Virus record (IMG/VR): IMGVR_UViG_3300022851_001239
Coordinates: 1 to 49,775 of that record
From: a virus
DNA: 49,775 nt
Reading direction: 5' to 3' (one strand)
This document shows positions 150 through 43,066 of the stretch, in pieces. A model generated the notes under the pieces. The model did no database searches and was not told the DNA's origin. It saw nothing but the letters and a program-made list of their open reading frames with translations. The position numbers were made by a program, and so were the translations under genes. Within the stretch, counting starts at the first letter, position 1. Every line of letters begins with the position of its first letter.

Positions 150-1109
150 TCACAATGATTGCCGCCACAGATAGCACTGCTCAATCGCGTCAATAATTGG
201 CGTGGGTCGATAGTCCAAGATCGTTTCGCTCACACGCTTGAAGTAAGCAGGCACAGGCGCACCATCGTTGAGCATCCGAAGCGTCTGCACATCAATCTTT
301 GGCTCTTTGCCGGTGAACCAACCCTTGATCTGCTCCATGTACGCAATCGCATACAACACGATTCGGCTGGTCGCTTTCGTTGGCGGTGTCTTTCCAGATA
401 CCCGCGCAATCTTCTGCACGAACTCAAGCCAGCTCAGATACTCACCACCCAAAACAAACCGCTGGCCAGTGACATCGGTTTTCAAAATTCGCACATGAGC
501 CTTAGCCACATCGTCTGCAGGACAGAACTCAATTCGGCCACGCGGGATAGGCAAGAATCCGCCCTCCGCAATGGTCTTGAAGAAGAACACATAGTTGTTG
601 TGGTCATGCTCGCCAATCACGATGATCGGATGCACGATGTTCACCTTGAGGCTGCCCATCGCGTTAATCACGATGTTCTCGGCCATCTTCTTGTGCTTGA
701 TGTACGGGTTTTTGACGCCACTAATCTGGCCATCACGCACCGTGCAAAGCGTTGCACCTGTCGAGGTGTAGACCAGTTCCTTCACACCGCTTGTACGGCA
801 GGCATCGACAATCGCCTGCGTCACAACCACGTTGTCTCGGTACGACTGATCAGTGCTGCCGTGCCATGACGAAACATTGCCCGCAGCGTGCATGACTGCC
901 TGGATTTCATTCTGTTTGAAAACAGCTGACAGTGAAACACGGTCTGCAAGGTCAATGCTCACCACGTGAACGTCGATGCCATCCAGCCGTGACAAGTCCG
1001 TGGTCTTACGCACAGAGACGTGTGGCTTCACGCCATGACGGTTAAGCTCGCGGCAAATGTGCCAGCCAACGCAACCGCTTGCTCCGGTGACAAAGATGTT
1101 GTCGTGCAT
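150..1109 (-). CDS. NAD-dependent epimerase/dehydratase (extended SDR)
   Basis: This 319-residue protein has the size of the extended short-chain dehydrogenase family, which acts on nucleotide sugars or related carbonyl substrates in the cytoplasm. A Rossmann glycine motif (GASGCVG, residues 9-15) follows a beta strand at the N-terminus. Ser116 (VYTST) and Tyr136/Lys140 (YIKHK) fit the catalytic S-Y-K set. The start at 1109 was chosen because the Rossmann strand begins right after MHDN; upstream in-frame codons give 27 basic, non-conserved residues. It sits 32 bases upstream of the pilin gene and probably belongs to the host. The substrate cannot be read from the sequence; 3-beta-HSD-like and dihydroflavonol-reductase-like enzymes are alternatives. 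Confidence 0.82.
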   Translation of the reverse strand: MHDNIFVTGASGCVGWHICRELNRHGVKPHVSVRKTTDLSRLDGIDVHVVSIDLADRVSLSAVFKQNEIQAVMHAAGNVSSWHGSTDQSYRDNVVVTQAIVDACRTSGVKELVYTSTGATLCTVRDGQISGVKNPYIKHKKMAENIVINAMGSLKVNIVHPIIVIGEHDHNNYVFFFKTIAEGGFLPIPRGRIEFCPADDVAKAHVRILKTDVTGQRFVLGGEYLSWLEFVQKIARVSGKTPPTKATSRIVLYAIAYMEQIKGWFTGKEPKIDVQTLRMLNDGAPVPAYFKRVSETILDYRPTPIIDAIEQCYLWRQSL

Positions 1110-1121
1110 GAGAACGCCAAT

Positions 1122-3292: not shown

Positions 3293-3823
3293 TCACGCCG
3301 AAGAAACTGTCAGGTCGCCGCCCGCGTAAGTAAGAGCTATCTCAGGAGGGTCGGGGTTTCTCACGACCATGGCCGTGAATTCGATGGGGTCTGCTTCACG
3401 GCCTACCGAGTCGATTGGTATCACTCTGAAGTACGCCTCAACCATGTCGGCCAACCATGCCGTGGGGTATTGGTAGACACCTCGTCCGTTCTCTACAACG
3501 TGAAGTTTGGTTATCCACGAGGAGCCCTGCAGGTGCTCAACCCTGTAGACGACCGAAGCATTGCCCGGCACGGCGTACCACTGCAGGACCATCCTGCCCG
3601 ATTCCTTGAGCTGATCAGCAATGACAGCCGGATCGTCGTAAACCTCAATTGCCGGAGGTTCAGAGTCGTCGCCGGTAACCATGACAAATTCCTCATCCAT
3701 GGTCACGATTTCAAGCCTGCCATGAAAGTAGACGTAAAACGTCGGAGCCGATGCTTCTGAAGTCCATCGCATGCGCCATGTACCTTGTGCGACTTTTTCG
3801 GGTTGTAGCTGGGTTGCGGACAT
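3293..3823 (-). CDS. Fibronectin type III-like tail protein
   Basis: This 176-residue protein contains patterns typical of fibronectin type III-like beta sandwiches, for example YRVEHLQGSSWITKLHVVENG followed by YFRVIPIDSVG, where a Tyr-x-Arg-Val strand and a paired strand with a conserved aromatic are seen. Such domains are common in phage tail tip and fibre proteins and bind surface carbohydrate weakly. The first 25 residues may be a separate strand region. It lies between two putative distal tail genes. The family assignment is by pattern and is tentative. Confidence 0.5.
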   Translation of the reverse strand: MSATQLQPEKVAQGTWRMRWTSEASAPTFYVYFHGRLEIVTMDEEFVMVTGDDSEPPAIEVYDDPAVIADQLKESGRMVLQWYAVPGNASVVYRVEHLQGSSWITKLHVVENGRGVYQYPTAWLADMVEAYFRVIPIDSVGREADPIEFTAMVVRNPDPPEIALTYAGGDLTVSSA

Positions 3824-3877
3824 GGTGACCTCCTGGTGATGGCTGTGGAATATCGTTTTTAAGGGGTTTTAATCACC

Positions 3878-5047
3878 CTAAATAACCGGCTGGTCGGCGT
3901 GGGCGGTGAATGACGAGCGTTTGACAGACTCAATGGTGCGAATGGATGGAAGCAACTTGGATTCGGGAGGCTGCGAGCGAAGACCAACCGGTAGCCATGA
4001 TTCGCTAGATTCCTGGTAACGCCACGGCCCGCGATGATCTGCGTTGCCCGCGTCAAAGCCGAATCCGGTGCCGCCGATGAGCTCTTCCTGTAGGTGGCCT
4101 AATGCAGTGAAGCTGCCGGGCAGGGTGCTGTAGTCGCCGCCTTCCCAACTCTTGGTGCTGCCGCTTGTGTAGACATACGCAAGGTTCAGCCCGTAGCTTT
4201 CAAAATCGACAATGCTTCCGGACGGGGAAACGCTAAACCAATCGCTATCGACAATACCACTCCAAAGCTGTAGGCGATAGGCGGTGGCCAGTGGGAACAA
4301 TGTGCCGAATTCAACGTATCTCGTGAGCGTTCCGTTCGCGTCACCGATGCCGCGATGAACCTTGAGCTTGTAACAAGTACCGGTGTCAGTAAAGCGATTA
4401 ACACGCTCCCATGTATCATCAGATTTAAGTCGCATCACATTGACATTGAATTCAAACAATTCTTCAAATGGCGGGTCATCAATTGGCGAGCCATAGAGGC
4501 GCATCTGGAATCCGCCAGCGTAAAGCTCGCCGCCAAAGACCACTAAAGAGTGGCATGGCCCCGAAGCATCACGTCCTGGGTTTGGACCAACCGCGTGCCA
4601 CTCTGTGCCGTCGTATCGGGCGATCCGCTTCACGGTCACGCCGCCGACGCTTCGTATAGACCCGCCGACATAGAGATCGTCGTCATACGAAACCATTGTT
4701 TCAATAAGGCCGTCGCCCGCGTAAGGAAGTTCTACCCATGTGTCGTTGTCATAAAAAAACAAGCTGTATTTAACGCCCAGCGAAACAACCAGCTTGCCAC
4801 GCCACATGCACATGGCTCGTACACTACTGGTGTTTGCGATGCTGATTGGCAGCGTTGCACCAATGTCCTCATAGACTTGCTCTGTGCTGTTCCAACGAAT
4901 GATGCTGGTGGTCTGATAAGACGTCGTACCGCCTCGATACATACCGAAATAGATATCCTCGTAATCAGGACGTACCACCCCGCCCCGCACCCCTGTTGGC
5001 GACCTGTACGGCACCCCTGTTGGTCCCATGATCGGCAGGCCAGTCAT
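3878..5047 (-). CDS. Beta-propeller-like distal tail protein
   Basis: This 389-residue protein has repeated units of the type Tyr-Asp-Gly-Thr-Trp / Asn-Asp-Thr-Trp-Val followed by a Leu-Tyr-Val-Gly-Gly strand (for example DDLYVGGSI and GELYAGGFQ). These resemble Kelch/beta-propeller repeats, which read as a wall of four-stranded blades. An N-terminal GPTGVPYRSPTGVRGG stretch looks like a short collagen-like or flexible linker. Its stop region overlaps nothing, and its ATG overlaps the stop of the upstream gene (5047..5589), so the two are probably translationally coupled. A role in receptor or glycan recognition is plausible but inferred. Confidence 0.55.
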   Translation of the reverse strand: MTGLPIMGPTGVPYRSPTGVRGGVVRPDYEDIYFGMYRGGTTSYQTTSIIRWNSTEQVYEDIGATLPISIANTSSVRAMCMWRGKLVVSLGVKYSLFFYDNDTWVELPYAGDGLIETMVSYDDDLYVGGSIRSVGGVTVKRIARYDGTEWHAVGPNPGRDASGPCHSLVVFGGELYAGGFQMRLYGSPIDDPPFEELFEFNVNVMRLKSDDTWERVNRFTDTGTCYKLKVHRGIGDANGTLTRYVEFGTLFPLATAYRLQLWSGIVDSDWFSVSPSGSIVDFESYGLNLAYVYTSGSTKSWEGGDYSTLPGSFTALGHLQEELIGGTGFGFDAGNADHRGPWRYQESSESWLPVGLRSQPPESKLLPSIRTIESVKRSSFTAHADQPVI

Positions 5048-5589
5048 TACTCATCCTCCGGAATTTCCACCCATGCACGGGCGTCTTCGTTCTGATCCAT
5101 CATCGTGAGGTCAGTTGTAATGGCCTCGATCGACGCGGTGATGCCAGTGATCCTGCTGCTTGCCACTTGGATCAAGTCACCGACGGCGTAGGCAGGTGCA
5201 ACCTTCCATTGGCCTGTGATCTCGTCTGTAGTTTCGACGTTCACGGTCTGGGTATCTACCGTTGTGATGGATACGAGGTGTGCGTACCGGGTTAGTCCGT
5301 GCTGTAGCATGCGGGGCTTGGCCACGTACAGGTCTGTGGCTCCGAGGATCAGTCCATCCCATGTGTTGACCACTAAATAGTCGTTCGCAATAGACTTGAT
5401 CTTGGCGAGAAACGTGGTGGCTGGTGCGGTGTAGTTCGGACGTCTCGTCAACAACCCATACGCACCAGCCACCGCGTTCTGTCCGCCTGATGACTGCAGC
5501 GCACGCACGGCCGAACGCACAGTGTTCTCGCTGCGGGCGCTGACTGGCTGGCCGGGCCTGACGTCAGGGATGTTGGTTCCAAAGGGCAT
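5047..5589 (-). CDS. Hypothetical tail-module protein
   Basis: This 180-residue protein is not recognised. Its N-terminus (MPFGTNIPDVRPGQPVSA) resembles the start of phage minor structural proteins with extended arms. The middle is beta-rich with many Thr and Val, and the C-terminus is acidic. It overlaps the next gene by one base and follows gene 5599..6414 by nine bases, so it is co-translated with the distal tail genes. Confidence 0.55.
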   Translation of the reverse strand: MPFGTNIPDVRPGQPVSARSENTVRSAVRALQSSGGQNAVAGAYGLLTRRPNYTAPATTFLAKIKSIANDYLVVNTWDGLILGATDLYVAKPRMLQHGLTRYAHLVSITTVDTQTVNVETTDEITGQWKVAPAYAVGDLIQVASSRITGITASIEAITTDLTMMDQNEDARAWVEIPEDE

Positions 5590-5598
5590 GACGTTCCT

Positions 5599-6414
5599 TT
5601 ACGCGGTGCGTTGATGGGTCAGGGCGAGGAAATTGCCATCTGGGTAGGGCTTGACCTGCTGGTCTGCCGTGTAGAGCCCTTGATATCCGTTTTCCTCACC
5701 TCGCCAGAACAGGTTCCAGCCTGATGGTTTGATCGTAAAGCGATACGTGACTTTCCACGCAGCTGGTCCCTCGGCGAATATCTGACGTGACAAATTGATT
5801 GACGAGTACAACAAGGTCTCGGGGGCAAAAGTCCAGCCAAGTGAGTTCGAAGTCACAACCGCACGATTCACATTGCCCAACAGTTTGTAACTGGCGTCAG
5901 AGATGTAGGCCGTGCGGCTGATCGTATAGACCCAATCCATCATGACGTTGATCTTGCCCGGTGCTTCGACGTCTTTTGCCTCGGTGCCATCACTGCTGCC
6001 CCACCGCAAACCCTCGGCCGGCAACGTAATGAACTCCGCCGATGGCTGCAGGTCTTCGTCAACGAGTACATCCGAATCCTCTGGGCTACCTGCCTGGGCT
6101 TCGGCGTATTGGACGGTCAGAATCGCGTGCTCGTAAGCGTTGGCGGTGTCGGCCTTGTCGATGCGTCCGCCGTTGGTGATGTAGCGATGAAACTTTTGAA
6201 TTTCGAGTGAACGAGCCAGTGCCGATGATCGTCCTGGATAACGGTGTGGGAGACGGATGGCGTTACCCAGCAGTTGGGCAGCCAGCGTGGCGCGATCTGA
6301 CCACGCGCACTTGAGAATGCGGGTGGCTTGAAAATTGCCGTCGCCGTGTGATTCGGTGGGCGAGTCATCCATCTCGTCCAGATTGATTGTGATGTTTGCT
6401 TCTGCGAGTGCCAT
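5599..6414 (-). CDS. Putative distal tail protein, unknown family
   Basis: This 271-residue protein lies immediately downstream of the tape measure gene, the position of the distal tail protein (Dit) in many siphoviruses. The sequence shows alternating beta-like segments and several Trp/Tyr residues near the C-terminus (GWNLFWRGEENGYQGLY). No clear Dit motif is seen, so the role rests on gene order. Nine bases separate it from the tape measure stop. Confidence 0.5.
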   Translation of the reverse strand: MALAEANITINLDEMDDSPTESHGDGNFQATRILKCAWSDRATLAAQLLGNAIRLPHRYPGRSSALARSLEIQKFHRYITNGGRIDKADTANAYEHAILTVQYAEAQAGSPEDSDVLVDEDLQPSAEFITLPAEGLRWGSSDGTEAKDVEAPGKINVMMDWVYTISRTAYISDASYKLLGNVNRAVVTSNSLGWTFAPETLLYSSINLSRQIFAEGPAAWKVTYRFTIKPSGWNLFWRGEENGYQGLYTADQQVKPYPDGNFLALTHQRTA

Positions 6415-6423
6415 GGTGTTTCC

Positions 6424-8769
6424 TTATGAATAGACGGCGTTGGCCGGGCCTTCGAGACGACCGTCACCGTACTTGTCCATCCACTGTTTGGTGTACTGCT
6501 CAATCTTCGTCAGCGTCTTGGTGGCCGTTTCAGTGGCGTTGGTCTGGCGTCGCTGGTAGTTCAGTGCCTGATCTTTCAGAGCCTGCTCTTGAATCCTGCG
6601 GCTCAAATCTTCAAGCCCAACCATCTGAGAGCCACCTGATGCGTCACCGAATGATGGCGAACCACCGCCCTCTTCATCGGTTTTCTTGCCCGGTTTTTGA
6701 TCGTCCGGAACTGGGATTGTGAAGTTGAGTTCACGAAGTGCGTCCTCAAATTTCTTTTTGAATTCCGGCGGGATCATGTCCTTGAAGAACGTTTTGATCG
6801 TGTCGCCCAGCGGGGTTTCTCCATCATCCTTGATCAATTCATTTACGAGCTTGGCGTCACGATCGGCAGAGACGCTGGCCAACTGATCGCGGAAGGCCGC
6901 AAAGGGCTTGGAGGCATCGGCCTGTGCGTTTTTATACTGCGATTCGTCGGCGGTCTTGTTTGCATCGTCGATGCCTGCGAGCTGGAACGCTTCGTCCGCT
7001 CGCTCCTGTATCTTGATCCGATGGTCGGCGAGGTAGTTGGTTTTGAGGATGTCGAGACGCCCCGCTTTTTCCTCTGCGGAAATGCTGGGGTTAAATTCAA
7101 TTTCTTTTCTGGCTGTCTCGTACACGGCGGCGTCACGGCCTTGCTCCATCACGCTCTTTGTGCCTGCCCATGCGGTCAAAAGCCATCGTCCGGTGTCCCG
7201 ATAGGCTGATTTCATGCCGTGCAACATCTTTAACCACGCCATCGTCATGCTCTCGGTCACGGTGTTCCATGCGCCAAGCAATCCCTCGGCGACGGCGTCG
7301 AAGCCGCGCGCCCATGTGGCGGACAAGTTCTGTGTGGTCGCAAAGACCTTGCGGATGAAGTCACCGAGCGTGGCAAACCCCGATCCGATCCGCTTCGTCA
7401 TTGTTTCGCCGTTGCCGGTAAGCGCAGCCATGCCGACAGCCACAACCCCAAAGGCCGCAACTAACGCACCCACCGGCGTTGTCGCGACACCCATGATGGC
7501 GATCCCCAACTTCAAGAATGATGCGGTCAGGGCGGCAATCGTTGGGATGCCAATCCCAAGTGCCAACACACCCGCGCCAACAAGACCAATGCCTGTCAGC
7601 AGGCGGCTGTTCTCGTTAATCCACTGGACCGTGAAATGCCTTACCGTCTTGATCGCGGCTACCGCGTGGTTGATCTTTGCCGTGAGCTTGCTCACATTCT
7701 TCGCCGCGTTGTTCAGGTAGTTTTTCAGCGGGAGCTTAAAGGTCTCAAAAACTGAGATGTTAAAGCCCTCAACCGCCGACTTAAGACGGACGAAACCCCC
7801 GTATACGTTGTCGAGTTGCTTGTCTGCGATATCTTGGGCCACGCCTGCGGAGTTCTCCAGTTCCTTCTGGAATCTACGCAACTCATCGCCTGATGCTGCG
7901 AGCAAGACCTGAAATCCTGGGCCTGCACGCTGGCCAAAGTTCTGCATGGCGAACGCGGCCTTGTCAGCCTCGCCCATTCCCTTCATCGCATGATTGGTTT
8001 CGTCTATGATCTGAGCCATTGGCTTGAGCGAGCCATTCGCGTCCACGACGCTAATACCAAGTTTATGAAAGTTCTTCTGTACCGCACTGGTAGACAACTT
8101 GCCCAAGATGCCACGCAGTGACGTACCGGCCAGTGATGCCTGCAAGCCCGCATTCGACAGGGCCTGCAGGGCTGCGACCGTTTCTTCGAGCGACTTACCC
8201 GAAGCGTTGGCAACTGGACCGACGTACTTCAAAGCCTCGCCTAACTGGGTTAAGTCGGTATTAGATGTCACAAAGGCTTGTGTCAGGATGTCGACGGTTG
8301 ACTCAAGTTGGTCGGCTTCAATCTCCATCCCTCGCATGGTCTTGGCCACGATGTCGGCGGCAGATGCCATGTCGAGTTGACCGGCAGCTGCGAGGTTAAG
8401 GGTCGCGGGCATTGAGGCGATGGTTTCATTAACGCTGAAACCCGCGAGTGCCAGACTGGCCATGGCGTCTGCAGCCTGCGATGCTGAGAATTGGGTTGTG
8501 CGACCAAGTTCTTGGGCGGTCTGTGAAAGCAGTTGAAGTTGGGCGGAGGTGGCTCCGGTGATGGCCCCGACCTTGCTCATGGACCGTTCAAAGGCCGCGC
8601 CCTGAATGATCGCACCAGTGAATAATGCCCCGCCGGTCAAGGGAGCGAGCAATGCGCCTGTACGCGCGGCCATGCTCCCGATCTGGCTGGCGATACGACC
8701 AAACCCTGCACTGAGTTTGCTTGAATCCAGCCTGAGCCGAACGAATGCCTCGCCTGCCATGAAACTCAT
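6424..8769 (-). CDS. Phage tail tape measure protein (TP901 type)
   Basis: At 781 residues this is the longest gene in the window. Residues about 60-290 match the TP901 tape-measure core: AAFERSMSKVGAITGATSAQLQLL, then QLGRTTQFSASQAADAM and the run of Ala/Leu helices ending at AASGDELRRF, which is the hallmark of the family. A hydrophobic central section (about residues 395-450, LTGIGLVGAGVLALGIG) gives two to three membrane-type segments used during DNA entry. The C-terminal third is charged and coiled-coil-like. The protein sets tail length and exits into the host envelope. Its ATG overlaps the stop of the frameshifted chaperone extension (ATGA). A tape of this size suggests a medium-length tail. 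Confidence 0.93.
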   Translation of the reverse strand: MSFMAGEAFVRLRLDSSKLSAGFGRIASQIGSMAARTGALLAPLTGGALFTGAIIQGAAFERSMSKVGAITGATSAQLQLLSQTAQELGRTTQFSASQAADAMASLALAGFSVNETIASMPATLNLAAAGQLDMASAADIVAKTMRGMEIEADQLESTVDILTQAFVTSNTDLTQLGEALKYVGPVANASGKSLEETVAALQALSNAGLQASLAGTSLRGILGKLSTSAVQKNFHKLGISVVDANGSLKPMAQIIDETNHAMKGMGEADKAAFAMQNFGQRAGPGFQVLLAASGDELRRFQKELENSAGVAQDIADKQLDNVYGGFVRLKSAVEGFNISVFETFKLPLKNYLNNAAKNVSKLTAKINHAVAAIKTVRHFTVQWINENSRLLTGIGLVGAGVLALGIGIPTIAALTASFLKLGIAIMGVATTPVGALVAAFGVVAVGMAALTGNGETMTKRIGSGFATLGDFIRKVFATTQNLSATWARGFDAVAEGLLGAWNTVTESMTMAWLKMLHGMKSAYRDTGRWLLTAWAGTKSVMEQGRDAAVYETARKEIEFNPSISAEEKAGRLDILKTNYLADHRIKIQERADEAFQLAGIDDANKTADESQYKNAQADASKPFAAFRDQLASVSADRDAKLVNELIKDDGETPLGDTIKTFFKDMIPPEFKKKFEDALRELNFTIPVPDDQKPGKKTDEEGGGSPSFGDASGGSQMVGLEDLSRRIQEQALKDQALNYQRRQTNATETATKTLTKIEQYTKQWMDKYGDGRLEGPANAVYS

Positions 8770-9074
8770 CGTTGTGCCTTTCGCCCGTAGTCGTAGGTCT
8801 GCCTGAGAAACGCCCGCGAGTCAGCCCTAGACGCAAATGCCCGGGGCTTGCGGCTGGAAATATCAGGGCGTTCAAAGGGTTGATCGGTGTCGATACGAAA
8901 CGGATCGGGCGGCAGGTCACGGCGGATGCCCAAGTACATCAGAACTTGTGGCCAGGTCAGATCGGCGATTTCACTGGGCGTCCATCCAAACTCGCGGGCG
9001 AGCCGGATCAGTACGGCGTCAATCTTTACCGGGTTCGGCTGGTCCTGTGTGGCTTTTGGTCCCAGCCACAGGGG
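8766..9074 (-). CDS. Tail assembly chaperone extension (T-like part, reached by frameshift)
   Basis: This frame opens after a stop at 9075-9077, has no convincing start codon or ribosome binding site, and runs to a TGA that overlaps the tape measure ATG. The sequence VLIRLAREFGWTPSEIADLTW is typical of the C-terminal parts of phage GT-type chaperones. Relative to the upstream chaperone gene (9019..9495) it is in the +1 (equivalently -2) frame and overlaps its last 18 codons. The expected product is a fusion made by a fraction of ribosomes. Candidate slip codons are GGG-A (9061-9063) and CCC-G just before the upstream stop, where the same tRNA could re-pair one base ahead. It holds the unfolded tape measure during tail tube assembly. 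Confidence 0.75.
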   Translation of the reverse strand, partial: PLWLGPKATQDQPNPVKIDAVLIRLAREFGWTPSEIADLTWPQVLMYLGIRRDLPPDPFRIDTDQPFERPDISSRKPRAFASRADSRAFLRQTYDYGRKAQR

Positions 9075-9495
9075 CTACGACCTCATCTTTCAACTCGCTC
9101 AAGACCTGAATCTTTTCACCGATCTCGGTCATAAACTGCATGTCGGAAAGTGGGAACATCTGGTCAATGTCATCGAGTGTGAGTTTGGGCTGGGCGATCC
9201 TCATGGACAACCAGATCAAACGGACAATGAATTCCGGGTCTTGATTCATGCCGCCGAGTTGCTCGAACGTGATGGTCCGGGCTTCGCGGTATGCACGATC
9301 GACGAACATCGCCTTCTCGTTGATCGTTAAGTCGGATTCATTACGAATCGCCCCCTTGGCGCTGGCGACAATCTGGTCGCGAGCCCATTGAACAAGTTGG
9401 CCGAGGCTACGCATGGTCAAGGGGCTGAGAATCCAGGTCTTGCCCTGAATCTGGACCTCTGATGTTGGTGCTGTGGCTTTGGTGATATCAGACAT
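9019..9495 (-). CDS. Tail assembly chaperone (G-like part)
   Basis: This 158-residue protein sits between the tail tube gene and the tape measure, the fixed place of the gpG-type chaperone. It is helical and charged, begins MSDITKATAPTSEVQ, and has a core with WILSPLTMRSLGQLVQWARDQ and an acidic helix TLDDIDQMFPLSDMQF. The final 18 codons overlap an open +1 frame (8766..9074) that has the hallmarks of the T extension. The pair therefore looks like the lambda G/GT system, with the short form as major product. It acts in the cytoplasm and is not part of the mature virion. Confidence 0.75.
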   Translation of the reverse strand: MSDITKATAPTSEVQIQGKTWILSPLTMRSLGQLVQWARDQIVASAKGAIRNESDLTINEKAMFVDRAYREARTITFEQLGGMNQDPEFIVRLIWLSMRIAQPKLTLDDIDQMFPLSDMQFMTEIGEKIQVLSELKDEVVAPVAGTKSHTGPAEPGKD

Positions 9496-9542
9496 GGTGG
9501 TGCTCGCGGTCAGGGGTATGAGGGATCAGGGCGATCGGAGAA

Positions 9543-9935
9543 TCAGGCTGCCGATGCGTCCTGGGCGAATTCACAGGCGAACACGATGGTGTCGGCGTCT
9601 TCAACCGATACCGTGCGGTCGATCTTGCCGATGCGAACGCTCTCGCCGTCAAGCATGAGAGTCGAGCCGTCGTTGGTGATGTCGATGGTCCCACGGTCGC
9701 CTTCAGCAAACGGAAGGTCATCGTCTTTGGCGACGTAGCACTCAAACGAGCCGGTCAGGTCTTCGCGGCCGGTGTGACGGCCGGTCTTGCCGTTGGTGTC
9801 GGATGAGCCATAATCCTTGAGGTCGGGATCGCGGCTGAATTGAATGTTACGGATGTCAGGAACGGCCGTGGTGGTGTCGCCGCTGTTGGTCCAAGATACA
9901 GAACCGAACTTTGCTGATTTCACGTTGTCAGGCAT
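9543..9935 (-). CDS. Major tail (tube) protein
   Basis: This 130-residue protein is beta-rich with the pattern of siphovirus tail tube subunits: a short N-terminal arm (MPDNVKSAKFG), VSWTNSGDTTT, a middle FECYVAKDDDLPFAEGD and a C-terminal TVSVEDADTIVFACEF. AAGGAGTCTGGC gives a strong ribosome binding site before the ATG, in line with a highly made protein. It lies between the tail terminator-like and chaperone genes, the usual tube position. Family membership is inferred from order, size and fold pattern. Confidence 0.65.
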   Translation of the reverse strand: MPDNVKSAKFGSVSWTNSGDTTTAVPDIRNIQFSRDPDLKDYGSSDTNGKTGRHTGREDLTGSFECYVAKDDDLPFAEGDRGTIDITNDGSTLMLDGESVRIGKIDRTVSVEDADTIVFACEFAQDASAA

Positions 9936-10011
9936 GCCAGACTCCTTGGGGCGATGTTTTTAAGCTCGCAGGTGTGCCGCATTGGCTCTAGCTGAAAATC
10001 TAACACGGGTA

Positions 10012-10515
10012 TCAGGCGAAGGACGGGGAATCTGCAATCAGCTGGTCGGCCGAGTTGAGTTGAAGCTGGACTGCGACCTGCATGATGGTGTCGAAGCCAG
10101 TCGGTGATTCGGTGTCGATGATTGCGACCGGCGCGGATGACCACTTGATCTGCCGGACGAAGTCGAGGCCGAGTTCAAGACCGTAGGTCTTTGAATAACG
10201 GGCGATGGCCTGCATGAGTTCGAACTGCGCGGGCCACACCTGTTGGGCTGCGTTGTCCGTACCTGAGAACACGACGAAGTCGAAGTTCATCGTCATGAAG
10301 CTCGTGTGCGTCGTGGCGAACAGGTTGATGTCGGTCAGGCCCTTGGGGAAGATCTCGAGCTGTGGGACATCCGCGCTCTGCAGACGGTCCTTCTTGGCCC
10401 GACGCTGGTTCCACTTCACGCGATTGCCGGGCTTGAACCGTGCCGTGAGTTTGGCGTCGTCCTCGACGATCGCCCATAGCTTTGTGTAAGTTGCTTCAAA
10501 TGGGTTCGATGCCAT
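10012..10515 (-). CDS. Putative tail terminator / tail completion protein
   Basis: This 167-residue protein is located between the virion-morphogenesis gene (10521..11015) and the tail tube gene, where the tail terminator (gpU-like) is normally found. The sequence combines an N-terminal helix (NPFEATYTKLWAIVEDD), a beta hairpin containing PQLEIFPKG, and FDFVVFSG, followed by long helices and a final strand TIMQVAVQLQLN. This alpha/beta order is compatible with gpU-like proteins that cap the tube. A GGAGGCTAGACCCC site precedes the ATG. Confidence 0.55.
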   Translation of the reverse strand: MASNPFEATYTKLWAIVEDDAKLTARFKPGNRVKWNQRRAKKDRLQSADVPQLEIFPKGLTDINLFATTHTSFMTMNFDFVVFSGTDNAAQQVWPAQFELMQAIARYSKTYGLELGLDFVRQIKWSSAPVAIIDTESPTGFDTIMQVAVQLQLNSADQLIADSPSFA

Positions 10516-10520
10516 GGGGT

Positions 10521-11015
10521 CTAGCCTCCTGTGGAACGGCGGTATGCCATTCGAATATCGCGTTGCATGCCGGTGATGGTCCCATCGTCTGGCATGGCCA
10601 AGATTTCACGACGAGGTAAACGACCGCCGCCACGTTGATGCGCCTCGGCGATCTGTGAAATCGTGATGTTGTCGTTGTTGTGCTGGTCGCTGCCACCAAA
10701 ACCAACATCGAGAAAGAGCTTCTTCCGTCGGTAGAGGTTGCCTGGGCCGTTCAGGGTCATGCCGTTGAACAGGACGCCTGTGTCGCGGAGAATCTTGATC
10801 GATGATTTGTTTTTATTCCGGCGGCGGGCGATCGTGAATGGCGATAGTGGTTTCCAATCCCCACCACCGGCTGCGAACGTCCGAAATCGCCTGCGGGTGA
10901 ATGCCAGGTATCGAATGCCCCACTGCTTGTACATCGCGTCCCATGCAGGGCCACGTCCTACACCACGAGACCAGTTGAGCAACGGAGACAAGTTCAATCT
11001 GTAGTTTTGGGCCAT
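10521..11015 (-). CDS. Phage virion morphogenesis (Mu gpG-like) protein
   Basis: This 164-residue protein shows the pattern of the Mu gpG/PF05069 family: an N-terminal helix, FRTFAAGGGDWKPLSPFTIARRR, ILRDTGVLFNGM and, near the end, EAHQRGGGRLPRREILAMPDD, which is the conserved basic loop followed by the hydrophobic/acidic turn. Family members act at head-tail joining or tail completion. It is five bases upstream of the tail terminator-like gene. It is separated from the other head-completion gene (DUF1320, 16443..16868) by the glycosyltransferase cassette, which looks like a later insertion. Confidence 0.75.
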   Translation of the reverse strand: MAQNYRLNLSPLLNWSRGVGRGPAWDAMYKQWGIRYLAFTRRRFRTFAAGGGDWKPLSPFTIARRRNKNKSSIKILRDTGVLFNGMTLNGPGNLYRRKKLFLDVGFGGSDQHNNDNITISQIAEAHQRGGGRLPRREILAMPDDGTITGMQRDIRMAYRRSTGG

Positions 11016-11022
11016 CTGGTGC

Positions 11023-11616
11023 TCACTTGATAAAACGAACGCGTGTACCTTGATGGGCGATCAACGCAATCAATTGGTCGACGATCCCCCGTTCTCGAAC
11101 CCATCGGGTTTCTTCACGGTGGATGGTCTCGCGGCCTCGATAATCTTCCTTGCCTGCCATGTCCATGCCGTAGATGTCGAGGTGTCGTGGAGCCAGATGC
11201 CAGGCCATCCCCAGCGCTGCCGTACCGTTGGTCATCCACCACCGTGGGCGTTGGGCCATCGGAGGTTGCTGTCCCTGGTCCATGAGAATTCGTCGTTCCT
11301 TCTGAAATCGCCCTGTTTGCTTGGGGAGCAATCGCGGGACTTTCAATTCAAGCGCCGAGGTCGTCCACATCATCGGACTGCCGATCGGAAGAATGCGCTC
11401 ATAGTCCATGGTGTCGATCAGCGCCCACGCATCGCATTCCCATAGTTCCACGACATCGCGTACACCGACGACGAAGTCGTACCCACCTGCTTCCTTACCG
11501 GGAAAAAGACGATTCGATGGTCCGCGTGAGATCACTGCCACATGATCAGGGTCTCCGCATTCTCGAACCCATTGGGGACGGGCCTTACCTGGAATTGAAG
11601 GTGGTGTCGTTTCCAT
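11023..11616 (-). CDS. DUF115-like putative glycan-modifying protein
   Basis: This 197-residue protein begins METTPPSIP, has an early VAVISRGPSNRLFPG segment (a GPS motif of nucleotide-binding type), a middle VVGVRDVVELWECDAWALID, and a C-terminal TNGTAALGMAWHLAPRHLDIYGMDMAG. The last pattern (small residues, then Ala-Leu..Ala, then strand, Tyr-Gly-x-Asp) resembles DUF115/sialyltransferase-like proteins that modify surface or flagellar glycans. It is the last gene of the sugar-gene cassette at 11.0-16.4 kb. The start at 11616 removes 34 Arg/Cys-rich residues that overlap the upstream gene in another frame. Confidence 0.55.
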   Translation of the reverse strand: METTPPSIPGKARPQWVRECGDPDHVAVISRGPSNRLFPGKEAGGYDFVVGVRDVVELWECDAWALIDTMDYERILPIGSPMMWTTSALELKVPRLLPKQTGRFQKERRILMDQGQQPPMAQRPRWWMTNGTAALGMAWHLAPRHLDIYGMDMAGKEDYRGRETIHREETRWVRERGIVDQLIALIAHQGTRVRFIK

Positions 11617-11618
11617 GT

Positions 11619-11990
11619 TCACCCCTTGGCAGCCAGTTTGATGATCGTGACGATACCTGCACCGGTCCCGGTGACAACGAGTGTCACGGCCGCGACAATG
11701 ACGGTTCGATGGAACCATCGTTGTGAACTCACCCAGTCTTCAAGGCGGGTGAAACGCTGGAGAAGTCCGGGTTTGTCGTCGCGGTTGCCGTGGATGATGC
11801 GCTCGTGCTGCTCGACGGTTTTGGTCAGGGCGCTAACGCTGTCAACAAGCGCAACAAGCTTGGCGTTGACATCACTGGCAAGATCAACGTCTTGTCGCAT
11901 CGCCTGCAGTGCGTTGTGGACCTCGTCTCGCAGTTGTGTCATTTCCTGCCGGATGCTCACCGGGTCTTGGTGTTCTTCGCCGATGCTCAT
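11619..11990 (-). CDS. Coiled-coil membrane protein, XhlA/holin-like topology
   Basis: This 123-residue protein has a long amphipathic helix (about residues 10-75) with heptad-like Leu/Val/Ile, then LLQRFTRLEDWVSSQRW, and one transmembrane helix (VIVAAVTLVVTGTGAGIVTII, about 98-118) with a short basic end. This layout matches XhlA-type and holin-associated phage proteins, which sit in the inner membrane with a cytoplasmic coiled coil. It starts with MSIGEEHQD. It overlaps the next gene by four bases. It could equally be a membrane anchor for the neighbouring glycosyltransferases. Confidence 0.5.
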   Translation of the reverse strand: MSIGEEHQDPVSIRQEMTQLRDEVHNALQAMRQDVDLASDVNAKLVALVDSVSALTKTVEQHERIIHGNRDDKPGLLQRFTRLEDWVSSQRWFHRTVIVAAVTLVVTGTGAGIVTIIKLAAKG

Positions 11991-12637
11991 TGGTTGAACC
12001 GTTCATCTTCGGGGTTAATGACTTCGCCTACGAAACCGCCGACCACTCCATGATCGGGGAAGGGCACGGCGGGCCACGGAAAATCTTTCGAATCAACAAG
12101 ATCGGCGCGTGCGTGTCGCAGGCAACGGCCCTTCACGCGAGGCCAGATGACCGACCGAAGGAAGTGCTGGTCATCACCCCATTTGGACTTCCGTGACCAC
12201 TTTGCTATCTGCTCAGCCATGTCCATGATCACGCCACCACGGATGCCCCACATGCCGCCATGAAGGGGGAAGATGCGGTGATGGATGTGGTCGTGCATGG
12301 CGTGGCAATCAAGACCGCTATCAACCCATGCCGCGACGGCTGCGGATTCTCTGATGTTCAACGTGCTATCTGCGTCGCGGAAGATCGCGTATTCAACATT
12401 GCGGGATGAGGCTGCGAGGAACCGCCAGAACATGCCTGTTGATCCCTGGGCCTTACCCATTGGCCGGACATACCCAACGTTAGCGAGTTGTCGCACGGTG
12501 TCCTCGGGAACGTCAGACGCGACGTAGAAGATGCAGTCCCAGCCTGGATAGACGGTTTGAGCGGTGCGGCCATTGCGGATGGCTCCGACGAGATATTTGG
12601 GATCGGTGCCATAGACCGAAATCGCGATGGCATTCAT
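11987..12637 (-). CDS. Glycosyltransferase (GT-A-like), phage-encoded
   Basis: This 216-residue protein shows the GT-A nucleotide-sugar fold pattern: an initial strand AIAISVYG, a later GWDCIFYVASDVPEDTV, FWRFLAA followed by AIFRDADSTLN, where D-A-D is the metal-binding DxD motif, and MWGIRGGVI downstream as acceptor-side strand. A HH motif (HDHIHHRIFPLHGG) is near the active site. It overlaps its neighbours by four bases on both sides (ATGA type), so it is translated with the cassette. Substrate and acceptor are unknown. Confidence 0.7.
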   Translation of the reverse strand: MNAIAISVYGTDPKYLVGAIRNGRTAQTVYPGWDCIFYVASDVPEDTVRQLANVGYVRPMGKAQGSTGMFWRFLAASSRNVEYAIFRDADSTLNIRESAAVAAWVDSGLDCHAMHDHIHHRIFPLHGGMWGIRGGVIMDMAEQIAKWSRKSKWGDDQHFLRSVIWPRVKGRCLRHARADLVDSKDFPWPAVPFPDHGVVGGFVGEVINPEDERFNQ

Positions 12638-13449
12638 ACGGCATCTCCTTCACGATGGTGGATGCGGTCGATCCAGAATTCGGCTTCAAGCAAAGGCTGC
12701 ACGTTCTGCCATCGCGGATCGAGGTCGCGTTCGATTCGATCAAGCCATGACGGGGTGACGTCGTTCCAATCCTCGACCAAGGCAATCGGCAGGCCACGCG
12801 AGACGAACGGTATCAATGCCTTGGATGGTCGGCAGATCGGAATGGTTCTGAGGTACAAGGCTTCCCAGAGTCGGTGGGTATCAGGGCCGTTGCCTGGCGG
12901 ACAGACGACGAAGCGATGTCGACGAAGTCGTCGAACGTATTGCGAGAAATCAATCTCCATCCAGTTGGCCCGCAAGGTCGTGTACTTGCCACCCTCGACC
13001 GTTGCCCAGTCTCGCTTTCGAAATACCCGATATGGTTCAATCCGTTCGGCCCTGTTTGAATAAATCGAATGGCAGCAGTAGAGCGGACGAGCTGATTTGG
13101 GCAACCGTGCCGCTTCCATCAGCGCATTGAAGTTTCCGTGCTTGATAGACGGATTCGCGATGCCAAGAGGCAAGGCGTGGACACGCCGATCATCGACATC
13201 GACGTTCACGCCCCACCACGCCTGTATGTTTGGCGGAGCGACCTGCATACCTTCGGCGGTGATACGAAGGTCCGAGTCCCCGGTGACCACAACGAACGAT
13301 CTCGATGGCATCTGGGCAGCTATGCGGAAGAGCCGCCGAACGTCATCGGTCTTGCACCAGATAACCCGACCTGCGGGAATGCCGATTTCACGATGGAACA
13401 CGCCGTCGCACAGGCGGGCGAAGTTGTGGCCGCAAAGGTGCGTCATCAC
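12634..13449 (-). CDS. Exostosin-like glycosyltransferase (GT47-type)
   Basis: This 271-residue protein has the GT47/exostosin C-terminal signature RHRFVVCPPGNGPDTHRLWEALYLRTIPICRPS: a strand, the PPGNG-type loop and the acidic helix that binds the nucleotide sugar. The N-terminal half contains DVDDRRVHALPLGIANPS and YCCHSIYSNRAERI. It overlaps the methyltransferase gene upstream and the GT-A gene downstream by four bases each. Family members transfer glycosyl units to glycan chains, and here the target may be virion or host surface sugar. Confidence 0.72.
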   Translation of the reverse strand: MMTHLCGHNFARLCDGVFHREIGIPAGRVIWCKTDDVRRLFRIAAQMPSRSFVVVTGDSDLRITAEGMQVAPPNIQAWWGVNVDVDDRRVHALPLGIANPSIKHGNFNALMEAARLPKSARPLYCCHSIYSNRAERIEPYRVFRKRDWATVEGGKYTTLRANWMEIDFSQYVRRLRRHRFVVCPPGNGPDTHRLWEALYLRTIPICRPSKALIPFVSRGLPIALVEDWNDVTPSWLDRIERDLDPRWQNVQPLLEAEFWIDRIHHREGDAV

Positions 13450-14177
13450 TCATCCTTGAGATCGTTGGCGGACTTGGTCTGAATTGGTGCGGGGCTAGTG
13501 ATTTCGGGTCGGCCTTTGCCATCGCCACCCTGAGGATCAAACGCCGCGATGATCCAGCTGTGGTGCTCCTGACCTTCCTCGATAACCGTGAATCTTCGAT
13601 CTTCACGAATTCGCTGGGCTGACTGGAAATGTTTGAGGTGGTCACAGTCATCCAAGGCGATGACACATGGATTGACCAGCATGCCCATCAAGTGCGAGAA
13701 CTCCAGCCAGCCGAGATGACCAGCCGAGTCCAGCAGGATGAAGTCCGGGCGTCCATCGCATCGCCTGAACGCTTCACCAAGTTGGTCATCTGGTCCACGG
13801 TGTGTCTGCTCGGCCAAGTACGCGCGTGCTCGTGCGTAGGCGTGATGATCTACCTTGATAGATTCGGGCACACCTTCGAGCATGTTGACGATGTCGGGCA
13901 GTGTCGGAAGATCGTCTCGTTCGATTGAAAGTCCGTGTAGTTGTATGGCCCGGACTTGGCGGCAGGTCGAACGCGCTACTTGAGCAAGGCGGAGGTTCAG
14001 TTCGATTGTGAAGAATTTGGCATTCGAGCCTTGCCGAATCAACTCACGACCGATCAATCGGGTTGAGCCTTCGCCGGTGTATGTACCAGTTTCGATGACA
14101 AACCGAGGGGTGTGTTTCCTCAGCGTCTTGACAACGGCTTTGGCGAACTCGGGCTGGATGTAGGTCATGTCTTTCAT
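13446..14177 (-). CDS. SAM-dependent methyltransferase, FkbM/Methyltransf_24-like
   Basis: This 243-residue protein has motif I RFVIETGTYTGEGSTRL (E-x-G-x-x-x-G), a following acidic strand FFTIELN, and a later FILLDSAGHLGWLEFSHL plus CVIALDDCDHLKHF, which is the order of class I SAM methyltransferases of small-molecule/sugar type. The ATG at 14177 has AAGGACTGACC upstream; a nearby ATG five codons earlier is less well placed. It lies inside a glycosyltransferase cassette, so sugar O-methylation or capping is a reasonable guess. The last 35 residues are low complexity. Confidence 0.68.
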   Translation of the reverse strand: MKDMTYIQPEFAKAVVKTLRKHTPRFVIETGTYTGEGSTRLIGRELIRQGSNAKFFTIELNLRLAQVARSTCRQVRAIQLHGLSIERDDLPTLPDIVNMLEGVPESIKVDHHAYARARAYLAEQTHRGPDDQLGEAFRRCDGRPDFILLDSAGHLGWLEFSHLMGMLVNPCVIALDDCDHLKHFQSAQRIREDRRFTVIEEGQEHHSWIIAAFDPQGGDGKGRPEITSPAPIQTKSANDLKDE

Positions 14178-14199
14178 GGTCAGTCCTTCCATCAGTCAT

Positions 14200-14997
14200 T
14201 CAGAGCAACTGAGCCGCCACGGTTTCGACCGATGGCGATGTGAATTCGGTGATGAGGTTGGTGTCTTTAACGCCTGCAGATTTAAGCCGAGTCAGCCAAG
14301 TAGGAACGGTCGGCCGTGAACCGTGGATGACGATCTGTGGGGTCTGTGTGGTCGCGGCCAGCCATGTCCCGCCTGAATCAAGTCCGATGTGTGCGACAGC
14401 GGATTCGATGATGCTCCGCCATTCCCTGATCGTGCCGGTGAATCTCAAAGCACCGGGGATGTCGCCATCACCGACAACCAGCGTGATGCCTCGGCCACGG
14501 AGGATGCGTGCGAGTTGGCTGTACTCATAACGTGACCACACACCGGGCTGGGTGTTGCCTGAGGCGTTGCACGTGACGTAGCGTCCGGGTGTTGGCTTGG
14601 GCGATGGCGATGATGTCACGACCAATTCACGACGAGCCGGGCATTTAACACCTGCGTGATGAAACATCTGTTCGATCAGGGTCATGGGAGCGAGGTCTTC
14701 CCATCGGTGATCGGGGAATACCTGGGGCTTGATGATGGCGTCGAAGTTGCGAGCACCGAAGGCTTTGATTTCTTCCCAGCGTTCACGCTCCTGCGCACGT
14801 CGTGTCACATGCGGCTTGAGCGGCCATGCCACGACCTCGTTCAAGTCCGGGTTGCCTCGCACGGCATCTGCGTAGGGTTCGAGCAGAATCCACGTGATGT
14901 GATCGTCCGGGTTCTGCCTGCGGTATTCGTGCAGGACGGCCGTTGCGATGATCACATCGCCCAGAACGCCAAATTGAAGGAAGGCCGTGGTTCTCAC
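14200..14997 (-). CDS. Glycosyltransferase family 9 (heptosyltransferase-like)
   Basis: This 265-residue protein begins with RTTAFLQFGVLGDVIIATAVLHEYRRQNP, a typical GT9 start (small-residue loop G-x-L-G-D-x). The C-terminal half has YVTCNASGNTQPGVWSRYEYSQLARIL and AHIGLDSGGTWLAAT followed by PQIVIHGSRPTVPTW, the nucleotide-sugar-binding loops of the GT-B fold. It is shorter than bacterial heptosyltransferases (usually about 320-350), so it is a compact version. Its ATG overlaps the stop of the upstream gene (ATGA). Confidence 0.75.
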   Translation of the reverse strand: MRTTAFLQFGVLGDVIIATAVLHEYRRQNPDDHITWILLEPYADAVRGNPDLNEVVAWPLKPHVTRRAQERERWEEIKAFGARNFDAIIKPQVFPDHRWEDLAPMTLIEQMFHHAGVKCPARRELVVTSSPSPKPTPGRYVTCNASGNTQPGVWSRYEYSQLARILRGRGITLVVGDGDIPGALRFTGTIREWRSIIESAVAHIGLDSGGTWLAATTQTPQIVIHGSRPTVPTWLTRLKSAGVKDTNLITEFTSPSVETVAAQLL

Positions 14998-15665
14998 ATC
15001 GCCTCCATAGGTTCAGAACCGGGGAACCGATCAGCCTGCCGCTTGAGGAACAACGCCCGATCTCGTGGGTCTTCGGCGTGTGCGCGGGTCAGGTGTTCAG
15101 GACGTTTGCCGCCAGGCTGGCGTGTCCAGTGATCGTGCTGGTGCTGGATATCACGACGTTCCCAATAGCAGTCTTGTTGGATGGCGACTTCTCTCAGCTC
15201 GCAGTCGACGTTGAAGTGGTAATAGGCTGGATGGAATGGTCCGTGGCCGTTGTATGCACGACGGATGAAGCCTGAACCGATCCACGGCGAGGTCGCAGCG
15301 TGTCGGTTGCCGGGGAATCCGTCGCCTGTGGGTTGCATCACGCCGTAGAGGTCGGGGAATCGCTTGGCAAAACCCTTGGCGATGTGCTGGGCTGTGTGGT
15401 TGGGGTCTGGGTGATGGTCGTCGCCGCCGGTCACGACGATGTCGGCACCGTGATTGCGGACGAGATATCGAGCAAGGTAATTAACAGCATCGCCGTACCC
15501 GATGTAATCAACCTGTTGAATGACGTCAGCAATGGCAAGGTACGGGTCTGGGTCAGCCGCGTGGTCGATGGCCACGGCTGTCATGAACCCACGTGCTTTC
15601 CATTCGGGAAGGGTGACAGCAGCTCGGTCAGGTCGTATTGATGGGATGGCAAACCAGATATTCAT
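14994..15665 (-). CDS. Putative glycosyltransferase (GT-A-like)
   Basis: This 223-residue protein starts MNIWFAIPSIRP, a strand and loop common in GT2/GT-A enzymes. An ADIVVTGGDDHHPDP segment holds acidic residues after a hydrophobic strand, compatible with metal and nucleotide-sugar binding, and a middle GSGFIRRAYNGHGPFHPAYYHFNVDCELREVA fits an acceptor-binding region. The ATG overlaps the end of the small membrane protein gene. The function is inferred from motif and cassette context. Confidence 0.6.
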   Translation of the reverse strand: MNIWFAIPSIRPDRAAVTLPEWKARGFMTAVAIDHAADPDPYLAIADVIQQVDYIGYGDAVNYLARYLVRNHGADIVVTGGDDHHPDPNHTAQHIAKGFAKRFPDLYGVMQPTGDGFPGNRHAATSPWIGSGFIRRAYNGHGPFHPAYYHFNVDCELREVAIQQDCYWERRDIQHQHDHWTRQPGGKRPEHLTRAHAEDPRDRALFLKRQADRFPGSEPMEAM

Positions 15666-15766
15666 TTTCGGGCCTTTCGGACAATGTGCAAAGAGATTCG
15701 GGCGGACACATAGAAAACCGACGCGACGATCAGGGCCGCGACCGTGATGAAAACGAAGGCGCTCAT
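15662..15766 (-). CDS. Small single-pass membrane protein (34 aa)
   Basis: This gene encodes MSAFVFITVAALIVASVF plus a basic tail ending RKARK. One N-terminal transmembrane helix of about 18 residues is followed by Arg/Lys-rich residues, giving an inside-positive topology with the basic end in the cytoplasm. Its ATG overlaps the stop of the upstream glycosyltransferase gene (ATGA) and its stop overlaps the next ATG (ATGA-type), so translation is coupled on both sides. This tight fit supports it being a real gene. It may anchor or help the adjacent glycosyltransferases; the function is unknown. Confidence 0.65.
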   Translation of the reverse strand: MSAFVFITVAALIVASVFYVSARISLHIVRKARK

Positions 15767-16413
15767 GCCCCACCTCGCGCATTCACTGCCTGCTTGTGCC
15801 GCCTGCTGCCCTGGGTCTGCCTGATGTAGATGTTGTCGCGTGGTCCGTAGTGGCGCTCTGACAGATCCACAGGACGGGCAGGGTCTTGGGCGTCGATCCA
15901 GTTAAATTCGGGGCCGAGTCGCTTGACCTTGAGTTCTGGCATGTCCTCAATGACCCGCTGGAGCAATGGCTGGTCCGACCACGTCTCGGGGTGTTGCTCG
16001 CACTGAGAAGCCCATCGCGAAAGCATCATCACGGCGTTTGCTGTCTTCTTCACCGCGATGGTCGCGGAGATCAGCTCACGGTCTTTGAAGTAGTGGACCG
16101 CGACGTCGAAGTCTTCGAGCGCTCCATCCAGATGCAGCGATGGGTCCGCAACCATTCGGGCGTCGGCGTCGAGGTACAGCAAGCAGTCGAATAGCCCGAG
16201 GTTGGCGTTGAGCAGCTGGTCCAGAATGAACGCGGGTTTCAGCTGGGTCGCGTGCTTCCAATTGCCGGGGTGGGGAAGCGATTGCACTGACCAGGAGAAT
16301 TGCCGACGGGCTTTGTTCTTGGCGTTGGAGCGCACAAACTCCATCGACTTTTGCAATGCCATCGCTTCGACTTCGTAGGGCGTTCCTTCGGTGTAATACG
16401 CGACGATGAACAT
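15763..16413 (-). CDS. Glycosyltransferase (GT-A, DxD type)
   Basis: This 216-residue protein starts MFIVAYYTEGTPYEVEA. The strand CLLYLDADARMVADPS carries the DxD motif, followed by an acceptor-side region YFKDRELISATIAVKKT and SDQPLLQRVIED, as in the nucleotide-diphospho-sugar transferases of the GT8/PF03407 type. The start at 16413 is preferred since the 30 codons upstream fall in the intergenic region. It is the first gene of the sugar cassette after the DUF1320 gene, with a 29-base gap. Confidence 0.7.
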   Translation of the reverse strand: MFIVAYYTEGTPYEVEAMALQKSMEFVRSNAKNKARRQFSWSVQSLPHPGNWKHATQLKPAFILDQLLNANLGLFDCLLYLDADARMVADPSLHLDGALEDFDVAVHYFKDRELISATIAVKKTANAVMMLSRWASQCEQHPETWSDQPLLQRVIEDMPELKVKRLGPEFNWIDAQDPARPVDLSERHYGPRDNIYIRQTQGSRRHKQAVNARGGA

Positions 16414-16442
16414 GGGCGTGTCCTTTCGTGGGCAGGTGTGGG

Positions 16443-16868
16443 TCAGACAACCCGAGGCGCGTTGCCCCGGTATTGAGTTGCTTTGGTGGCGTTCATCCGC
16501 CATTGGCCTGAGACATAGGCGTTGATCTCGCTATGCACAGCCATCTTCATGTTGGTCAGCCTCGCGGCCTCGCCCGTCATATTTCCCGCGTCGTCAAAGC
16601 CGCGCTCCTGGTAGAGCCAGATGCCTGCAAGTTTGGCCGTCCAGTCCACGACAACCGGCGGGGTCGATCCGGTGGTTGGGTCAGTCAGAGGTAAGGCGTA
16701 CTGTGTGTCACGAAGCCGGTCGTTCACGATGTTGGTCGCCCATGCCAACGCCCTATCCACACGGGTGGTGACGATGGTGTCTGCGACGTCGTTATCGAGG
16801 TTCGACCAGCGAGCGATGTTGGTCACGCCGAAAACATCTGTCACGTCGGATTGCGTGGCGTAGGTCAT
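16443..16868 (-). CDS. Head-tail connector protein, Mu gp36-like (DUF1320)
   Basis: This 141-residue protein starts MTYATQSDVTDVFGVTNIARWSN, the N-terminal signature of DUF1320 (Mu gp36) proteins, and has TTRVDRALAWATNIVNDRLR and VVDWTAKLAGIWLYQERGF as the following helices. Members are placed between capsid and tail genes and are thought to form head completion or connector rings. CAAGGATGACCCC precedes the ATG, directly after the capsid terminator hairpin, so the gene is either partly read through or has its own start. A glycosyltransferase cassette follows. Confidence 0.75.
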   Translation of the reverse strand: MTYATQSDVTDVFGVTNIARWSNLDNDVADTIVTTRVDRALAWATNIVNDRLRDTQYALPLTDPTTGSTPPVVVDWTAKLAGIWLYQERGFDDAGNMTGEAARLTNMKMAVHSEINAYVSGQWRMNATKATQYRGNAPRVV

Positions 16869-16881
16869 GGGGTCATCCTTG

Positions 16882-41182: not shown

Positions 41183-41871
41183 TTCCTTGCACGAAAGTCA
41201 TTGGCGTTGCATTCGATGATGCCGCCGTTTTCTTTGATCCTCGACACCATGGCCGGTCCGATTGCCTGGCAGAAGACATTGGCGCTTTGGTTGGCGATCA
41301 GGATCGTGGATTTCATCGCCCCGTATCGCTTGTTCAAAATCGCGTGAAGCATGTTGTTTTCCCAGTCAGATTCACCACGCCGGTCGGCGTCGTCGATGAC
41401 CAGAAATTGTGGGATGGTGTAGCTGTTGAACAGTTCAAGCTCACTGATGCCTGCCCGTGACTGGTAGGGACTTCGCATGGTGAGGATCATCGCGCCAATG
41501 TCGGTGAACATCGCTGAGGGCCGCGTCATCTTCCAGATCGACTGCCGCATGACCTCGACGGCCATCTGTGTCTTGCCGCTGCCTGGGTCTCCGACGATCG
41601 CGACGGTCGCGCCTTCGTCATGGTTCGTCATCGCGATGGTGCGGTTCAACTGCCTGCCCCACTCGCCCTTGAAGTTCAACCCGTTGTTATGAATTCGCTG
41701 ACGGTGACGGGCCGATACCTTTGTGCCGTTCCAGCAGGATCGACGCGTGTGCTCAAGGACGATGGCGTCGTATTCTGTTTTTCGATCAGCATTTGATGGG
41801 TTTAAGTGTGAGGTTGTCACCGGTGTAGCGGCCTTCGTTTTGCTTGGTTCGTTGTCGTTCTTTCGAATCAT
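41179..41871 (-). CDS. DnaC-like helicase loader ATPase
   Basis: This 230-residue protein has Walker A VGDPGSGKTQM (about 94-101), AMFTDIGAMILTM, Walker B FLVIDDADRR, and ILIANQSANVF as sensor 1, which fits DnaC/IstB-type AAA+ loaders. It overlaps the upstream initiator-like gene by 86 bases, and AAAGG lies a few bases before the ATG. The gene order initiator - loader - helicase is typical of phages with their own replisome. Confidence 0.82.
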   Translation of the reverse strand: MIRKNDNEPSKTKAATPVTTSHLNPSNADRKTEYDAIVLEHTRRSCWNGTKVSARHRQRIHNNGLNFKGEWGRQLNRTIAMTNHDEGATVAIVGDPGSGKTQMAVEVMRQSIWKMTRPSAMFTDIGAMILTMRSPYQSRAGISELELFNSYTIPQFLVIDDADRRGESDWENNMLHAILNKRYGAMKSTILIANQSANVFCQAIGPAMVSRIKENGGIIECNANDFRARN

Positions 41872-43046: not shown

Positions 43047-43066
43047 GTTGTTCTCCTGTTGTGAGT

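Follow-up and report, generated by a model that had tools for sequence, protein, structure and literature searches.

A GT114-containing glycosyltransferase and O-methyltransferase cassette inserted between head-completion genes of a phage, with a probable role in virion glycosylation

Nine tightly coupled open reading frames (ORFs) on the minus strand, at positions 11023-16413 of the window (the whole stretch of DNA analyzed, 49,775 bases from an IMG/VR virus record), form a cassette inserted between the genes for a head-tail adaptor and a Neck1 protein. We consider it probable that this cassette is a late-expressed virion-glycosylation module, building a short, O-methylated sugar chain on a protein of the virion; the timing of expression, the acceptor, the sugars and the place of the glycan on the virion are what we infer. 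The original prediction had described a set of glycan genes between two virion genes, and both borders indeed match virion families. The four-base overlaps that it described as running almost throughout the cassette are seen at 6 of the 8 internal junctions, with gaps of 22 and 2 nt at the remaining two. All cassette ORFs are intact, and only 60 nt of positions 10521-16868 are non-coding. The features, with the evidence for each, are as follows.

16443..16874, minus strand: head-tail adaptor (Mu gp36/DUF1320), upstream border (Phage_Mu_Gp36, Pfam PF07030, E = 1.3e-9; PHROG phrog_195, E = 1.2e-13)
15763..16413, minus strand: g1, GT-A-type glycosyltransferase (Nucleotid_trans-like) with an LDADA motif (family match and invariant DxD)
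15662..15766, minus strand: g2, 34-residue protein with a single transmembrane (TM) segment, ATGA-coupled on both sides (hydropathy and overlaps)
14994..15665, minus strand: g3, GT-A glycosyltransferase of a widespread viral family, GVMQPTGD motif (108 viral loci; model)
14200..14997, minus strand: g4, GT9-like glycosyltransferase with a strain-variable tract in codons 21-93 (Pfam GT9; 3tov; variation)
14719..14935 (217 bp), minus strand: the strain-variable tract in g4 (50 of 51 differences from record L002)
13446..14177, minus strand: g5, SAM-dependent O-methyltransferase (profile to 3ntv, E = 6e-8, and catechol O-methyltransferases)
12634..13449, minus strand: g6, GT114 glycosyltransferase, homologue of PBCV-1 A075L (phmmer E = 6.6e-25; profile E = 7e-56)
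11987..12637, minus strand: g7, GT-A glycosyltransferase, FRDxDS and GGMWG motifs (phage homologues and model)
11619..11990, minus strand: g8, coiled-coil protein with a C-terminal TM segment (hydropathy)
11023..11616, minus strand: g9, MptE-like/DUF115-type putative glycosyltransferase, GPS motif (family alignment)
10521..11015, minus strand: gpG-like tail completion/Neck1 protein, downstream border (PHROG phrog_222, E = 1.1e-8)
150..1112, minus strand: NAD-dependent sugar epimerase-like gene at the contig edge (Pfam Epimerase, E = 1.2e-28)

Comparison with phages lacking the cassette, the check that the original prediction had proposed, located an empty site. Four syntenic but distant phages show it: Bacillus phage Eoghan, Rossellomorea phage phiT1, Gordonia phage Orchid and Rhodococcus phage Reynauld. 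Their portal proteins are 20-22% identical to that of the window, and their genes in the adaptor and Neck1 places touch or overlap each other; in some of these phages the annotation names just one of the two. The gene order portal, capsid, adaptor, Neck1, tail terminator is common to the window and all four, and the Neck1 protein of the window shares 35% identity with Eoghan gp18. Because adaptor and Neck1 adjoin in these relatives, while 5,427 nt lie between them in the window, we regard the cassette as an insertion. In GC content and GC3 the cassette does not differ from the rest of the window, so that composition gives no hint of recent insertion, and a scan for promoters and terminators found sites no more numerous than in shuffled sequences.

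A single-sequence search of the PDB with g6 returned A075L of PBCV-1 as its sole match, and a g6 profile gave no significant match beyond A075L. A075L is the proven capsid-glycan xylosyltransferase of PBCV-1, acting on the capsid protein Vp54, and GT114, the family founded on it, supersedes an earlier exostosin/GT47 label (PMC11571054). Residues Asp73, Arg158, Arg208, Glu211, Asn202 and Gly203 of A075L are equivalent to D60, R136, R193, E196, N187 and G188 of g6, which retains the catalytic base Asp, both phosphate-binding Arg, the ribose-binding Glu and the acceptor-side KTD motif; K33 and D35 correspond by motif to the A075L acceptor contacts Lys34 and Asp36. The reaction of GT114 is the transfer of xylose to O4 of a fucose in a core glycan. 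Homology to A075L and the conserved catalytic residues thus place g6, labeled GT47-like in the original prediction, in GT114, whereas the other identities proposed there hold once homologues are used. The reaction type is likely the same as that of A075L, but acceptor and donor specificity may differ, because the uracil contact Asn148 is replaced by His127 and the rhamnose contact Thr112 by Ala98. The two proteins share 33% identity over 201 residues, as close as g6 is to most of its phage homologues; in a tree with unresolved deep branches, A075L is the row nearest g6. A search for GT114 in 50,697 phage records found just two unannotated environmental records.

Single-sequence Pfam matches of the cassette genes are weak, and for this reason families were built from related loci. 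The g1 family matches Nucleotid_trans (E = 6.8e-8), a match found in 4 of 11 homologues, and one of the four g9 family members matches PF01973 (MptE-like/DUF115, E = 1.3e-5). The g3 protein is 35-45% identical to 35 aligned homologues, and its AlphaFold model (pLDDT 95) adopts a GT-A fold whose best PDB matches are glycosyltransferases; g7, which shares 34-42% identity with phage homologues, is modeled with a glycogenin-like GT-A fold (pLDDT 86). The match of g4 to Pfam Glyco_transf_9 (GT9; E = 2.3e-4) scores 21.0 bits against a cut-off of 22, and g4 also matches PDB 3tov (E = 1.2e-3). The g5 protein has a small, COMT-like O-methyltransferase fold, and its homologues stand directly upstream of GT114 genes in jumbo and T4-like contigs. 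Neither of the small single-TM proteins has recognized relatives: g2 has none beyond the same phage, and g8 matches only XhlA in Pfam (E = 0.08). A coiled-coil TM protein resembling g8 (phrog_7360, positions 3799-4119 of L004, marine virus AG-345-D19) stands among glycosyltransferases. No polytopic membrane protein or flippase is encoded in the cassette. Pfam matches of g6 to HTH, g7 to RGI_lyase and g9 to UFC1 are weak and partial, and were rejected as spurious.

Members of five cassette families (g1, g3, g6, g7 and g9) recur elsewhere in the collection searched, which is viral only. A motif scan with g3 found 108 viral loci. Fifteen loci hold both g1 and g3; in 14 of them g1 lies upstream, and in 13 it directly adjoins g3. 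Twenty-six loci carry at least two cassette families, of which 18 are left once loci with a gene in common at 70% identity are dropped. In these 18 loci, the two genes of each of the 45 pairs are co-directional, as is expected in phage operons, and 38 of the 45 pairs stand in the window order (binomial about 2e-6, for pairs that are not independent, in loci chosen post hoc through motif searches or, in some cases, as the best match). Two loci, L199 and L238, hold g1-g3-g6-g7 in window order, and in both a sulfotransferase-like gene, named by eye, lies between the GT114 gene and g7 (1552-2151 and 8551-9216, respectively), which suggests a sulfated glycan. For the few contigs with visible virion genes, the slot varies: the families lie between portal and MuF in L200, after the major head protein in L213, which has the nearest portal and MuF relatives found outside this phage itself, and after tail genes in L233 and L243, in addition to the adaptor/Neck1 slot of the window. 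The L200 locus (3752-12851) is a much larger sugar island, containing two epimerases, a pyruvyltransferase-like gene, g1, g3, g7 and a g9-like gene. Single-sequence scans with g4, g5 and the major capsid protein returned near-identical contigs only; g3 found no match in 50,697 phage records, nor in 297 genomes of the phylum of G001 in a scan run without a positive control.

The record L002 represents the same phage, and we compared it with the window over 12,472 bp. Nearly all of the differences fall in the 217-bp tract of g4, which spans codons 21-93 of 265 in the N-terminal half of the protein, the half that faces the acceptor in GT-B enzymes. Length and frame are kept between the two records, and dN is 0.15 and dS 1.29, giving a dN/dS of about 0.11 and therefore indicating purifying selection between alleles. 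The tract looks like an allele swap and is consistent with one recombination with a diverged relative. The difference may instead be an assembly bubble between co-occurring strains, in which case two alleles would still exist. A diversity-generating retroelement was rejected as the source, the changes being mostly at third codon positions and mixed in kind.

The late block of the window begins, on the minus strand, with terminase, portal, MuF, a protease/scaffold-like gene, a 232-aa protein, major capsid and the head-tail adaptor, and continues after the cassette with Neck1, tail terminator, tail tube, chaperone and tape measure; the protease, the 232-aa protein (in the position of a decoration gene), tail terminator, tail tube and chaperone are named by position only. 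The replication block encodes DnaB, DnaN (recognized from its translation), RecT-like, RusA, HerA-like and replication-initiator proteins and a C5 DNA methylase. This methylase, a C5-cytosine enzyme of 573 aa, lies in the early block (34564-36285), and two ORFs (41786-42688 and 42732-43070) match one PHROG replication-initiator family and represent either one split gene or a tandem duplication. The window ORFs scanned yielded neither an integrase nor a transposase. The description of the phage as Mu-like thus stands for the head genes and fails for the remainder, where DnaB, DnaN, a RecT-like protein and an initiator are found instead; with replication genes of non-Mu type and neither integrase nor transposase found, the suggested action in the lysogen gains no support. 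The epimerase-like gene at the contig edge possibly supplies nucleotide sugars or belongs to a host flank, its membership in the phage being uncertain. Searches for the host gave only distant matches of mixed phyla by DnaN in genome contigs (best 28-31%) and no match by a portal scan, and no tRNA was found in the window.

On the favored reading, a virion glycan would be made as follows. The module, placed between the adaptor and Neck1 genes, would be expressed together with the virion proteins; soluble glycosyltransferases in the host cytosol would then attach sugars sequentially to a protein of the capsid or tail, or else to a precursor not yet assembled. The GT114 enzyme would add one residue to an oligosaccharide already begun, as A075L does in chloroviruses, and the g5 O-methyltransferase would cap or decorate a sugar. 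The original prediction had left the choice between virion and host surface. A glycan cassette in a late virion operon is borne out, and we favor the virion because of the empty site, the action of A075L on Vp54 and the retained catalytic residues, as well as the lack of a polytopic protein or flippase, the recurrence in or beside virion genes and the precedent of cluster O mycobacteriophages. Against it, the T4-like and cyanophage homologues sit in sugar islands that do not adjoin virion genes.

The late-operon location could also serve modification of the host surface, at a late stage of infection or in a carrier state, which might, for example, keep released particles from sticking to debris or exclude other phages. 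Enzymes of family GT9 typically act in the assembly of lipopolysaccharide cores, and the cassette holds two single-TM proteins, but there is no flippase or bactoprenol glycosyltransferase, no integrase was found, and the sole characterized GT114 member works on a capsid protein; the tightly coupled place amid head-completion genes and the recurrent insertions in virion modules also agree better with a virion product, and we consider a host-surface role unlikely. Glycosylation of the phage DNA, protecting it from nucleases, appears very improbable. Phage glycosyltransferases for DNA bases are common and the genome carries a cytosine methylase, but no thymidylate-synthase-like, hydroxymethylase or base kinase gene was found among the window ORFs scanned, the cassette lies in the late virion operon outside the replication block, and GT114 together with an O-methyltransferase with COMT-like relatives indicates sugar-chain chemistry. 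The mosaic content across phages and the cassette genes without relatives would suit morons, passenger genes that arrived together and are either decaying or retained for reasons unrelated to the particle. Their intact, tightly coupled ORFs, the purifying selection between g4 alleles and an order mostly kept across the 18 dereplicated loci speak against this explanation, however, and make it rather improbable.

A broader picture may also be proposed, which we regard as tentative and open to considerable doubt: a transferable virion-glycan module, built around the GT114 enzyme shared with chloroviruses, would circulate among uncultured tailed phages, enter several virion slots and, among co-circulating strains, change glycotype by exchanging short stretches of allelic sequence in the acceptor-side domain of its glycosyltransferases. 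The g4 tract suggests that the glycans of phage particles may vary at the strain level as surface antigens do.

Sugar genes of such variety at this place, called unusual in the original prediction, have a counterpart that qualifies this statement: in cluster O mycobacteriophages, three glycosyltransferase genes and one for an O-methyltransferase lie between portal and protease genes (PMC4351075). These glycosylation genes are reported, in a passage of PMC11600133 that cites Freeman 2023, to modify capsid and tail tube. As in the cluster O phage Corndog, the window sets glycosyltransferases and an O-methyltransferase within the virion gene block of a tailed phage. The likeness is one of gene content and of placement among head genes, with four genes in the portal/protease slot of Corndog and nine in the adaptor/Neck1 slot here. 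By this analogy, a virion glycosylation cassette is a kind already known. Gtr serotype-conversion clusters of temperate phages share phage-encoded glycan modification, whereas their flippase, bactoprenol glycosyltransferase and integrase were not found here. The sugar islands of T4-like, jumbo and cyanophage contigs (L111, L120, L151 and Synechococcus phage S-SRM01) all have g7 homologues, and the first three also have methyltransferase-GT114 gene pairs with little or no gap; these islands are larger than the cassette and, in the stretches seen, do not lie between virion genes, and that of S-SRM01 also makes nucleotide sugars. PBCV-1 offers soluble virus-encoded glycosyltransferases and O-methyltransferase activity (PMC11571054, PMC9614988), and its A075L is the homologue of g6, but it is a eukaryotic algal virus with scattered glycosylation genes and a different acceptor pocket. 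As far as the literature searched shows, the GT114 link to chlorovirus capsids, the recurrent order with a shifting slot and the allele swap are new. Phage virion glycosylation has been demonstrated experimentally in few systems. Here, a recurrent gene set across unrelated phages is anchored by a structurally solved enzyme and is shared with a giant-virus capsid pathway, which makes predictions of acceptor and sugar testable.
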